Of a DNA stretch of 42,402 bases, positions 18,649 to 42,402 are shown in pieces. Positions within the stretch are counted from its first letter, which is position 1. Each line of letters opens with the position of its first letter. Source of the stretch: Natrialba asiatica DSM 12278 (GTDB lineage: Archaea; Halobacteriota; Halobacteria; Halobacteriales; Natrialbaceae); the NCBI RefSeq assembly GCF_000337555.1, contig NZ_AOIO01000039.1, positions 1 through 42,402 on the forward strand, given 5' to 3'. The translations under genes were made by a program, and so were the position numbers. The notes below the pieces were generated by a model. That model was not told the DNA's origin and did not search any database. It worked only from the letters and a program-made list of their open reading frames with translations.

Positions 18649-19560
18649 TTACCGTTCGAGTTCGTCCGGCTGATTCTTCCACTCGCCGATGCCGGACGGA
18701 TCGAGGTGGACGTGCGCGTCGCCGACGTCCTCGAGTCCGCGGAGTTGATCGACGAGTTCTGATTCGATGTCGTGGGCGCGCCGGAAGGGGAGTTCGCCGT
18801 CGACCTCGACGTGGACTTCGACTTCGAGGACGGGACCGTCGTAGAAGACGGTCAGATCGTGGACGCCCTGCACGTCGGGGTGGGACCGGAGCACGTCGAG
18901 CACCGCCGTTCGCTTCTCGGGCGTCGGGGCGGCACCGACGAGGTAGTCGACGTTTTCGCGACCGATTTCGACGCCCTGGTAGACGACCAGCAGGCTGACG
19001 AGCCCGCCGGCGACGGGATCGAGTTGGGGCTGGCCGAACGCGACGCCGATGATGCCGACGACGGCGGCCAGCGACGTGTAGATGTCGTTCAGACAGTCGG
19101 CTGCGAGCGCCGAAAGGGCGGGCGAGTCGAGTTCCGCGTTGATTGCGACCGTGTACCGGTAGACCAGGTACATATCGACGATTGCGAAGCCGAGCGAGCC
19201 GAGCAACAGCGGGCTGAAGGTGACGTCGACCTCGGTGAGCAGTCCCTCGACGGAGCGATAGAGCAGGTTCAATCCGAGGAGTGCGATGACGGCGCCGACG
19301 AACAGCGCCGTCAGCGGCTCGATGCGGTCGTGCCCGTGGGGGTGGGTGTCGTCGGGTTCGTCGTACGAACTCTGTCCCCAGATATAGACGACGATGCTGG
19401 CGATGAGATCCGCGATCGAGTGTGCCGCGTCGGCGAGGAGGGCGACGCTCCCGAAGACGAGTCCCGCAGCCCCTTCGACTGCGATTTTCGCGACGTTGCC
19501 GAGGACGTTGACCCACGATGCCCGTCGGAACCCGCGTCGCTCGTCCTCGACACTGTCCAT
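18649..19560 (-). CDS. Cation diffusion facilitator (CDF) family transporter
   Basis: The product has 303 residues. It has six predicted membrane helices and a cytosolic C-terminal domain. The transport site is visible as H47-x3-D51 (ADAAHSIAD in TM2) with D155-x3-D159 (ADCLNDIYT in TM5). The loop THPHGHDRIEPL (about 72-83) is the His-rich linker typical of CDF proteins. It exports divalent metal (Zn2+, Mn2+, Fe2+ or Co2+) in exchange for protons; H47 rather than Asp in TM2 is common in Zn-selective members, but selectivity is unproven. The C-terminal ferredoxin-like domain (from about 212) ends with HVHLDPSGIGEW. Confidence 0.93.
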   Translation of the reverse strand: MDSVEDERRGFRRASWVNVLGNVAKIAVEGAAGLVFGSVALLADAAHSIADLIASIVVYIWGQSSYDEPDDTHPHGHDRIEPLTALFVGAVIALLGLNLLYRSVEGLLTEVDVTFSPLLLGSLGFAIVDMYLVYRYTVAINAELDSPALSALAADCLNDIYTSLAAVVGIIGVAFGQPQLDPVAGGLVSLLVVYQGVEIGRENVDYLVGAAPTPEKRTAVLDVLRSHPDVQGVHDLTVFYDGPVLEVEVHVEVDGELPFRRAHDIESELVDQLRGLEDVGDAHVHLDPSGIGEWKNQPDELER

Positions 19561-19699
19561 GGACGGTTTAGAGCCAGTCTAACCTTGGGTCTTTTCCTTC
19601 CGACCGACCGCCGCGAGCGTCCCGGAACGGTCGCAGGTCATAACGCTCATCAACCTGTGCGAACGACCGCCTAGTAAGACGGTTCGAATCACGACGCGG

Positions 19700-19705
19700 T
19701 TTAAA
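19700..19705 (+). promoter_or_regulatory. TATA box of the crcB operon
   Basis: TTTAAA lies 25 nt before the first base of the fluoride aptamer, so transcription should begin at or within a few bases of the riboswitch. Confidence 0.6.
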
Positions 19706-19724
19706 CGTGGTGACCACCCCCTTC

Positions 19725-19781
19725 GGGCGATGGGGCCCGCCCGACCCAACCGCCGGCACCGACCGCCGGCTGACGGTCCCT
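19725..19781 (+). promoter_or_regulatory. Fluoride riboswitch (crcB motif)
   Basis: The sequence GGGCGATGGGGCCCGCCC opens the aptamer: GGGCG pairs with CGCCC. A second stem, CGCCGGC with GCCGGC(T)G, follows the invariant AAC. It is followed by TGACGGTCCC, whose GGUCCC pairs with the loop GGGGCC as the pseudoknot. The order and conserved GAUG/AAC/UGA positions match the Thermotoga petrophila aptamer closely. It ends 14 nt before the crcB ATG. In archaea the switch probably controls either translation of crcB or elongation. The GGUCCC is close to the start codon, but no expression platform is obvious by eye. Confidence 0.95.
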
Positions 19782-19795
19782 GCCACTACGCAGCC

Positions 19796-20215
19796 ATGGC
19801 AGCATCCCAGCCCCACCCCCTCGTTCGACTCGAAACGCTCGCACTGATCGCCGTCGGCGGCTTCGCCGGCGCGAATCTCCGCTACTTCGCGATGGGCCTG
19901 CTCTCCGACGTCCAGTCCGTCCTGCTCGTCAACGTCATCGGCAGCTTCGCGCTCGGGTTTCTCGTCTACGAATCCCAGTACACCGGCCTCGTCGCGCGCA
20001 AATCGAGAGTCGTCTTCACGACCGGCTTCCTTTCTTCGCTGACAACCTACAGCACGTTCGCCATCCAATCCGCACTCGCGTCCGCCCCCCTCCTGCTCGT
20101 CGCCATCGTCCTCGGCAACTACGGCCTCGGCTTTACCGGCGTCCTCGCCGGCCGTGAACTCGCCCGCAGACTCGGCGATCCGGCCGCCGCGACGACCGGC
20201 GGTGAGACGGCATGA
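19796..20215 (+). CDS. crcB1: Fluoride channel CrcB/Fluc, first subunit
   Basis: The product has 139 residues from the ATG at 19796; an earlier in-frame ATG lies inside the riboswitch and is rejected. Four membrane helices carry the family signatures GGFAGANLRYF, VNVIGSFALGF (pore Asn) and TGFLSSLTTYSTF (Thr/Phe of the fluoride path). Fluc channels are dual-topology or heterodimeric and export fluoride. The gene overlaps the second crcB by 4 nt (ATGA), and the pair is controlled by the fluoride riboswitch directly upstream. Confidence 0.96.
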   Translation: MAASQPHPLVRLETLALIAVGGFAGANLRYFAMGLLSDVQSVLLVNVIGSFALGFLVYESQYTGLVARKSRVVFTTGFLSSLTTYSTFAIQSALASAPLLLVAIVLGNYGLGFTGVLAGRELARRLGDPAAATTGGETA

Positions 20216-20676
20216 GCGCGACCGCCGCGGCGTCGCTTGCTGAACTCTGGACGGCGATCGGCGGACCGTTCGCGTTGGTGTCCGTCCCGGACGTTAGTAT
20301 CGCAGCGGTCACGTTCGATCCCGAACCTGCACACGTCGTGGGGACCGGCGGTGCGATCGGTGCGGTGTTGCGCTACGGCGTGTATCAACGGCTCTCGAGC
20401 GACCGATTCCCCTGGCCGACGCTGCTGGTGAACGTCGTGGGCAGTTTTGCCTTCGCGCTTGCGATGTTTGCGGGCGCGACCGAGTCGGTCCTGCAGTTGC
20501 TTGGAACTGGTCTCTGCGGGGCGTTCACGACCTTTTCGTCGTTCTCGGTCGAGACGGTGCAGTCGTACGAGCGCGGTGATCGGCTACTCGCGGTCGGCAA
20601 TGCCGGTGCGAATCTCGGTCTCGCACTCGCTGGAATCGGTCTCGCGTGGATCGTCGTCGCGCTGGGGCCCGTTTAG
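20212..20676 (+). CDS. crcB2: Fluoride channel CrcB/Fluc, second subunit
   Basis: The product has 154 residues. A longer polar/hydrophobic N-terminus (about 40 residues) precedes the four helices. Signatures are GGAIGAVLRYG, VNVVGSFAFAL and TGLCGAFTTFSSFS. Its ATG lies within the stop of the first crcB, so translation is coupled. With the first subunit it probably forms a heterodimer of opposite orientation, as in paired Fluc genes of other organisms. Confidence 0.95.
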   Translation: MSATAAASLAELWTAIGGPFALVSVPDVSIAAVTFDPEPAHVVGTGGAIGAVLRYGVYQRLSSDRFPWPTLLVNVVGSFAFALAMFAGATESVLQLLGTGLCGAFTTFSSFSVETVQSYERGDRLLAVGNAGANLGLALAGIGLAWIVVALGPV

Positions 20677-20835: not shown

Positions 20836-22044
20836 TCACGCCTGAGACAGGTCGTCGAACGCCGCCGCAGCCGTCCGGGTCCCCTTCGAAATCAGCACGT
20901 CGCCGGCCTGCACCGTCGTGTCGGAGTCGCCGACGAGTAACCAGCCCTCGTCGGGGCGGCGGATTGCGATCACCGACATGGTCGAATCGGTGTCGGGGAC
21001 GCCGCTGATGACGGTCGCGCCGTCGAGGGTGCTCTCCCGCTCGACCGGAACGCGGGTGATGATCTCGTCGCTCTCCTCGACGGCCATCTGGACGACCGGA
21101 TGAACATCGAGATCGCGGAGGACGCCCTCGCTAATGTCGGCCGCAGCGTCGCTGATAACCTCCGTGCTGTTGCCCAGTTGGATGAGTCCCCGAAGGACGA
21201 CCGGATCGTCGGCGTCGGCGGCCGCTCGAAGCGTCCAGGCTTCGAACCGAGACTCCATCGCGTCGACTTCGACCTCCAGATTGCGGACCTCCTCGGCGAG
21301 GGCCTCGCTGTCGAACAGCACGCTGCTGTAAGCCAGATCGACGGCGAGTTCGGAGAGGTTCTTCATGTGGACGATGGTGTCGACCGCCCGTTCGAGGTCG
21401 TCGATGTCCGGAACGTCGACTGCGGGGGATTCGTAGGGCGTGCCGGTGAGCGTCTCGTAGACCGATTCGATCGACGTATCCGGGCCGCGAAGGAGCGCAA
21501 CGTCGTCGCTCGCGACCGTCGTGTTCGGGCCGGGATTGAGCAACCACTCGTTGCCGCGCCGAAGGGCGATCACTCGGACGCCGGTCTCGGACTCCAGATC
21601 GATGTCCATCAGCGTGCGGTCGGCGAACGCGGAGTCCGGCGAGACGACGCCCCGAACGAGCGTCTCGGTCGCTTCGGGAAGTGCCGCCCGCATCGCCTCC
21701 GGCAACCCGACCTCCTCCAAGATGATCTTCGCGATGTCGCCCGCGGCGTCGCTGATGTCGCCCGCCGCGGCGACGATCCCTAGAACGGGAGCCAGTTGCT
21801 CCGCGTCGTCGGGATTTCGAACCGCCATCATGAGGCTCATCCGTGCCTGCAGTTCGAGGACGTCCATGCGCTCTTCTAAGCGCAGCACTTCCCGCGCGAG
21901 GTCGTCGTTACGGTGCAAGACGGCCGAGTACGAGAGATCGATCAACAGCTCCGCCGTATCCTTCATCTCGACCAGGATATCCTTGACACTACGGGGCTCG
22001 TACTCGACCGACACCGCCGCAGTCTCCCCCTCGAACGGGTCCAT
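20836..22044 (-). CDS. Duplicated PhoU-like / RCK-C (TrkA-C) protein, probable K+ channel regulator
   Basis: The product has 402 residues in a clear internal duplication. Residues about 18-110 form a helical PhoU-like domain (SVKDILVEMKDTAELLIDLSYSAV), about 125-200 an RCK-C/TrkA-C domain (GVRVIALRRG, DDVALLRGP), about 225-315 a second PhoU-like domain (VDTIVHMKNLSELAVDLAYSSV) and about 330-400 a second RCK-C (MSVIAIRRPDEGWLL, AGDVLISKGT). RCK-C domains bind ligands that gate K+ transporters. The haloarchaeal family is annotated as a potassium-channel-associated protein but has no membrane segment of its own. No channel gene is adjacent. It is divergent from serS. Confidence 0.88.
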   Translation of the reverse strand: MDPFEGETAAVSVEYEPRSVKDILVEMKDTAELLIDLSYSAVLHRNDDLAREVLRLEERMDVLELQARMSLMMAVRNPDDAEQLAPVLGIVAAAGDISDAAGDIAKIILEEVGLPEAMRAALPEATETLVRGVVSPDSAFADRTLMDIDLESETGVRVIALRRGNEWLLNPGPNTTVASDDVALLRGPDTSIESVYETLTGTPYESPAVDVPDIDDLERAVDTIVHMKNLSELAVDLAYSSVLFDSEALAEEVRNLEVEVDAMESRFEAWTLRAAADADDPVVLRGLIQLGNSTEVISDAAADISEGVLRDLDVHPVVQMAVEESDEIITRVPVERESTLDGATVISGVPDTDSTMSVIAIRRPDEGWLLVGDSDTTVQAGDVLISKGTRTAAAAFDDLSQA

Positions 22045-42332: not shown

Positions 42333-42402
42333 GCCCGGGTGGTGTAGTGGCCCATCATACGACCCTGTCACGGTCGTGACGCGGGTTCAAATCCCGCCTC
42401 GG
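42333..42402 (+). tRNA. tRNA-Asp (GTC), truncated at the window end
   Basis: The acceptor strand is GCCCGGG. The anticodon stem CGACC/GGTCG encloses CTGTCAC with anticodon GTC, and the T-arm is GCGGG-TTCAAAT-CCCGC. The sequence ends in CTCGG, so the last 3 nt (GC plus the discriminator base) lie beyond the window. The 70 visible bases otherwise form a normal cloverleaf. Confidence 0.93.

Follow-up and report, generated by a model that had tools for sequence, protein, structure and literature searches.

Members of the crcB motif class were already recognised in bacteria as well as archaea in 2010 (PMC2864571). The haloarchaeal copies described here, among them one in a 42,402-nt stretch of DNA from Natrialba asiatica DSM 12278 (the whole stretch is called the window below), share with this class (RF01734) the P1 and P3 hairpins, the pseudoknot, A6, U38, A40 and U48, and the position before crcB. 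They depart from it in that the window copy and the Natrialbaceae type carry C instead of U at position 41 and a GGGGCC/GGUCCC pseudoknot, and in that P3 is expanded in relatives. The Thermotoga petrophila aptamer (PDB 4ENC) is presumably near-identical to the window copy in its 5' half, with a GC-rich pseudoknot and the same key pairs. It is bacterial and transcriptional, unlike the window copy, which also differs in C41 and in the 3' strand of the pseudoknot. A first-pass annotation of the window had placed the aptamer close to the T. petrophila sequence; the likeness holds mainly for the 5' half and fails at position 41, which is C and not U. The bacterial fluoride switches of Pseudomonas syringae and Burkholderia pseudomallei control a Shine-Dalgarno region, and the Natrialba copy is without one. 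Shared with these translational riboswitches (PMC13273304) are the absence of a terminator and the opening of the start region expected from fluoride.

The fluoride riboswitch of Thermococcus kodakarensis is described as the only archaeal riboswitch experimentally tested so far (PMC8241225). Like the Natrialba element it is an archaeal fluoride aptamer with presumed translational control, but it belongs to another archaeal lineage, and its aptamer RNA lies upstream of TK0513 and not directly before crcB (PMC4247193, transcriptome map). Masking of the AUG in a haloarchaeon, as proposed below, is also a property of the theophylline riboswitch E, which works in Haloferax volcanii and masks the Shine-Dalgarno sequence together with the AUG when no ligand is present (PMC8241225); unlike the Natrialba element it is synthetic and covers a Shine-Dalgarno sequence as well. 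About 72% of haloarchaeal transcripts are leaderless, and leaders with a defined structure are regarded as unusual in this group (PMC4983044). No paper on a haloarchaeal fluoride riboswitch was found in a full-text literature search with subscription journals outside its scope. The Natrialba copy belongs to a widespread haloarchaeal version of the fluoride riboswitch, which seems to need no ribosome-binding sequence and to act by alternately covering and uncovering the start codon. As it occurs in about half the members of one haloarchaeal family and also in several further families, it would provide a natural, testable case of how start-codon access is regulated in archaea without a Shine-Dalgarno sequence.

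The RF01734 match in the window was located on the forward strand at 19717-19789, with a score of 29.7 bits (E 5.2e-6, whole-genome search), below the gathering score of 34 bits. No further match with E<0.1 was obtained in the whole genome, the next best (0.33) being at chance level. Within the match the aptamer core extends from G1 to U48 (19725-19781, +). P1 (19725-19742, +) is formed by 19725-19729 and 19738-19742, and P3 (19752-19770, +), seen in the folds and in the family alignment, by 19752-19757 and 19765-19770. GGGGCC at 19732-19737 (+) is the first strand of the pseudoknot and pairs with GGUCCC at 19775-19780. A6, U7, U38, A40 and U48, the pocket residues and the A40-U48 linchpin, are all present; position 41 (19774, +) is C where the family consensus is U. 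The copy sits immediately 5' of crcB, in keeping with the placement of RF01734 members before fluoride-resistance genes. Exactly 14 nt separate U48 (19781) from the ATG at 19796, the distance given in the first-pass annotation, and all six pairs of the pseudoknot reported there form. Its assignment of a fluoride riboswitch before crcB was borne out by the RF01734 match, the pocket residues and the covarying stems, and on this sequence evidence the element is very probably a fluoride-binding riboswitch.

Two genes for fluoride channel FluC subunits follow on the same strand, crcB1 at 19796-20215 (PF02537, 54.5 bits, E 1.7e-14) and crcB2 at 20212-20676 (PF02537, 82.9 bits, E 2.3e-23), both above the PF02537 cut-off of 32.9 bits. 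They overlap by 4 nt (ATGA, 20212-20215). The pairing of crcB genes, previously singled out as a feature of this locus, proved to be ordinary, as at least two crcB genes were present in all 25 aptamer-less haloarchaea tested.

Comparison with other haloarchaeal crcB leaders, which the first-pass annotation had proposed as a check, showed the aptamer to be conserved. Of 391 genomes of the class, 66 gave RF01734 matches. When the 5' half of the aptamer was searched for as a sequence pattern, 77 of the 391 had it; within the family it was present in 67 of 125, all seven Natrialba genomes among them, and the reversed pattern occurred in none of the 125. The comparison set consisted of 95 distinct haloarchaeal loci, which are not independent. 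A6 and U7 were kept in every locus, and U38 as well as the A40-U48 pair in 94. The six pseudoknot pairs formed in 95/95 loci with GC, AU, CG, GU and UA types, and two of the pairs had changed on both sides. In a covariation alignment of 41 distinct sequences, from which the P3 loop was cut out, 96.8% of the cells were paired (P1 99.5%, P3 90.2%, both with two-sided changes). Two-sided changes were counted in 57 cells, compared to a mean of 16.3 after shuffling, and none of 500 shuffles reached this number; shifting the partner by one column reduced pairing to about 54-55%. Judged by this pairing and these two-sided changes, the aptamer is under selection as a folded RNA. The switch seems to have been lost in some family members. 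Upstream of crcB1 in L213 (genome G344) there is an aptamer remnant with GGCGATAGGGCCC in place of GGCGATGGGGCCC, and the remnant upstream of crcB1 in L198 (G005) is heavily changed. In loci L074 and L075 (G358 and G296) a pair of fluoride aptamers is separated by about 415 bp; a small open reading frame of its own follows the first aptamer, and crcB directly follows the second. A cluster of seven RF01734 matches was seen at 70-82 kb of contig 16 of G654, a non-halophilic archaeon of the same phylum.

C at position 41 was found in 63 of the 95 loci, which constitute the Natrialbaceae type with one other counted in; the non-halophilic archaeal loci inspected in the same phylum have T at this position. 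The type is further marked by its GC-rich GGGGCC/GGUCCC pseudoknot and by a P3 that varies in length. The distance between G1 and U38 is 39 to 210 nt, compared to 37 to 57 nt in other haloarchaea, and P3 of relatives is stretched by up to about 170 nt. Long inserts in P3 are present in four of the seven Natrialba. In loci L120-L123 (Natrialba G163, G338, G032 and G262) expansion of P3 brings the distance from G1 to U38 to roughly 110-210 nt, and the P3 loop of L120 contains an 8-bp tandem repeat, CGACCAGC, in 10.4 copies. C41, the pseudoknot and the variable P3 lower the Rfam score, and the stretched P3 hides many copies from Rfam. Most of the Natrialbaceae copies found by the model score below the gathering cut-off, four C41 copies score above it, and the close relatives G350 and G047 pass. 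This shows that the cut-off misses a large clade of predicted fluoride riboswitches in which position 41 is C and the P3 loop is expanded. The clade-wide substitution at position 41 calls for caution. The base at this position is presumably extruded in the crystal structure, and we are aware of no strict requirement for U. In Bacillus cereus, U41A abolished switching, and the position is highly conserved (PMC11077080).

A TATA box had been annotated at 19700-19705, and TTTAAA is present there (+), with a PWM score of 4.0, between the 95th and the 99th percentile of the background. It is preceded by a BRE-like CGAA at 19685-19688 (+). The upstream consensus of 42 non-redundant Natrialbaceae loci reads CGcAA at -41 to -37, close to the position of this CGAA, CTCAT at -34 to -30 and AA at -15/-14, and 81% of these loci have A at -4 from the first G of the aptamer. 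BRE, TATA, the -10 WW element and the initiator all point to the same transcript start for the family, which would lie about 4 nt before G1, and TATA-like sites of other haloarchaea fall in the same range. The earlier placement of the start at the aptamer edge fits this family consensus; the window's own TTTAAA predicts a different position. The spacing was calibrated on about 0.84 Mb of the window's own genome, using TATA-like elements before leaderless genes. A distance of 30 nt to the leaderless start was the most frequent (36 sites; 10-90% range 29-36 nt), and 25 nt was at background level (4 sites). TTTAAA begins 25 nt before G1 in the window, in N. taiwanensis and in N. aegyptia, and with the spacing of 29-36 nt the window transcript would begin at 19729-19736, inside P1.

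The spacing opens the reading that in this species the switch is decaying or bypassed. A TTTAAA-driven transcript would then begin at the ATG at 19730-19732 (+; A6, U7 and G8 of the aptamer), lack the 5' strand of P1 and encode a leaderless, N-terminally extended CrcB1. TTTAAA and 19730 lie exactly 30 nt apart, the commonest spacing in this genome, and the three Natrialba species have kept the block around TTTAAA, with 0-1 differences in 26 positions compared to 4-6 in 19 just downstream. The stretch 19730-19796 is open and in frame with crcB both in the window and in N. taiwanensis. However, P1 is intact in all three species, with changes that preserve pairing, the frame is random in other members, and in N. 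aegyptia (L038) it is interrupted by a stop codon. Decay or bypass of the switch is improbable, and the ATG at 19730 was rejected as a conserved leaderless start. The block at 19680-19706, TTCGAATCACGACGCGGTTTAAAC, is better conserved in the three species than the sequence downstream of it and contains the palindromic hexamers TTCGAA and TTTAAA; it might serve as the binding site of a regulator and not as a core promoter.

Translational control had been favoured before the present comparison, and it was supported by the short distance to the AUG, the lack of a U-run, the scarcity of Shine-Dalgarno sequences and the enrichment of CAG at the AUG. From these sequence features, control is probably exerted at translation. 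The distance from U48 to the AUG was 10-19 nt in 91 of the 95 loci despite differing linker sequences. If transcription were controlled, the archaeal RNA polymerase would terminate or pause ahead of the coding region depending on fluoride, in agreement with most studied fluoride riboswitches, which act on intrinsic terminators (PMC11077080, PMC13273304). However, none of the 95 loci has five consecutive T in the 70 nt that follow the aptamer, and the approximately 14 nt between aptamer and AUG are too short for a separate terminator, so that transcriptional control has a low probability. Fluoride could also act on mRNA stability, the locked fold protecting the transcript without any alternative pairing of the start codon. 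The family promoter elements speak for this, since with a start about 4 nt before G1 the transcript would open with the fold. Protection of the transcript leaves unexplained why the AUG follows at a short, fixed distance and is flanked by CAG triplets, and it is considered quite unlikely.

No Shine-Dalgarno sequence was found in the 14-nt linker of the window. Sequences resembling one were present in 7 of the 95 loci, compared to 85 of 484 control gene starts, taken from one genome as the 5'-most ATG of predicted open reading frames. In many copies from non-halophilic archaea of this phylum the aptamer is closely followed by a GGAGG- or GGUGG-like sequence. Haloarchaea seem to have lost this Shine-Dalgarno sequence while retaining the spacing of aptamer and start codon. 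What was found at the haloarchaeal start codons is the triplet CAG, located within 9 nt upstream or 7 nt downstream of the AUG in 84 of 95 loci, compared to 93 of the 484 control starts. CAGCC directly before the AUG occurred in 31 of 69 riboswitch loci and 2 of 484 control starts, and AUGGCAG in 35 Natrialbaceae-type loci and 4 of 484. The aptamer carries the complementary triplet CUG at positions 37-39 and 47-49; these two triplets contain U38 and U48, the residues that close the pocket (PMC11586693).

In the window both contacts can be drawn. GGCUG at 19768-19772 (+; the 3' strand of P3, U38 and G39) is complementary to CAGCC at 19791-19795 (+), directly before the start codon of crcB1. A start-codon hairpin is predicted at 19780-19802 (+), in which CUGCCA (19780-19785) pairs with UGGCAG (19797-19802) and C47 and U48 are used. 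In the model conditions (1 M NaCl, pseudoknot-free), which differ from haloarchaeal intracellular salt, this hairpin has an energy of -6.5 kcal/mol alone and -2.3 kcal/mol once the aptamer has taken up C47 and U48. One or the other CAG/CUG pairing appeared in the predicted folds of 43 of 57 Natrialbaceae loci. The mean duplex energy between the aptamer core and the start region was -13.5 in Natrialbaceae, compared to -8.6 for other gene starts, and complementarity between aptamer and start exceeded the control median in 14 of 16 clades (p 0.0016). In constrained folds, aptamer formation opened the start region by 0.149, compared to 0.057 in controls; the gain was mainly in the bases preceding the AUG, and the AUG itself opened little, from 0.497 to 0.511. 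The exact pairing register varies between clades. One compensatory change was seen within a genus, GAUGAC/GUCAUC in L023 and L024 and GACGAC/GUCGUC in L070; L070 also has a U38C change.

The CAG enrichment might instead reflect initiation context or the N-terminus of CrcB, with the switch operating via another contact. Swapping of start regions across clades caused no loss of pairing strength (p 0.47), so that clade-specific co-evolution was not found, in a test of low power because the aptamer side of the pairing hardly varies. The Natrialbaceae are closely related, and N-termini of the MA and MS kind recur. Against an origin in initiation context or N-terminus, only 6 of 25 aptamer-less haloarchaeal crcB starts had a flanking CAG and none had CAGCC before the ATG. 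Furthermore, the alanine codon of AUGGCN starts was GCA in 40 of 40 Natrialbaceae-type cases, compared to 19 of 47 in the genome. We regard this explanation as rather unlikely.

It is reasonably likely that the element is an RF01734 fluoride riboswitch which switches on crcB1 and crcB2 at the level of translation, with the start-codon region masked by the 3' part of the aptamer. The RNA would begin at the aptamer or a few bases from it, so that the leader would be little more than the aptamer. When fluoride is absent, the start-codon region would fold back onto this 3' part, and the CAG triplets on either side of the AUG would pair with the CUG triplets that carry U38 and U48; in the window, masking would take the form of the hairpin 19780-19785/19797-19802. 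Fluoride and Mg2+ would lock the pseudoknot, A6-U38 and A40-U48, by which the CUG triplets would be taken and the AUG freed. Because both use the same nucleotides, fluoride binding would compete with masking of the start codon. Translation of crcB2 would follow by coupling at the ATGA overlap. That this CAG/CUG competition is the switch itself can be put forward tentatively. Equally tentative is the wider suggestion of a haloarchaeal switch free of a Shine-Dalgarno sequence, in which the CUG triplets of the pocket may double as the expression platform by pairing with the CAGs around the AUG.

Upstream of the riboswitch, a divergent gene for a CDF-family cation efflux protein was found at 18649-19560 (-), and the intergenic region is common to both. 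A convergent gene with PhoU and TrkA_C domains lies downstream of crcB2 at 20836-22044 (-). A tRNA-Asp (GTC) gene at 42333-42402 (+) is cut by the end of the window.
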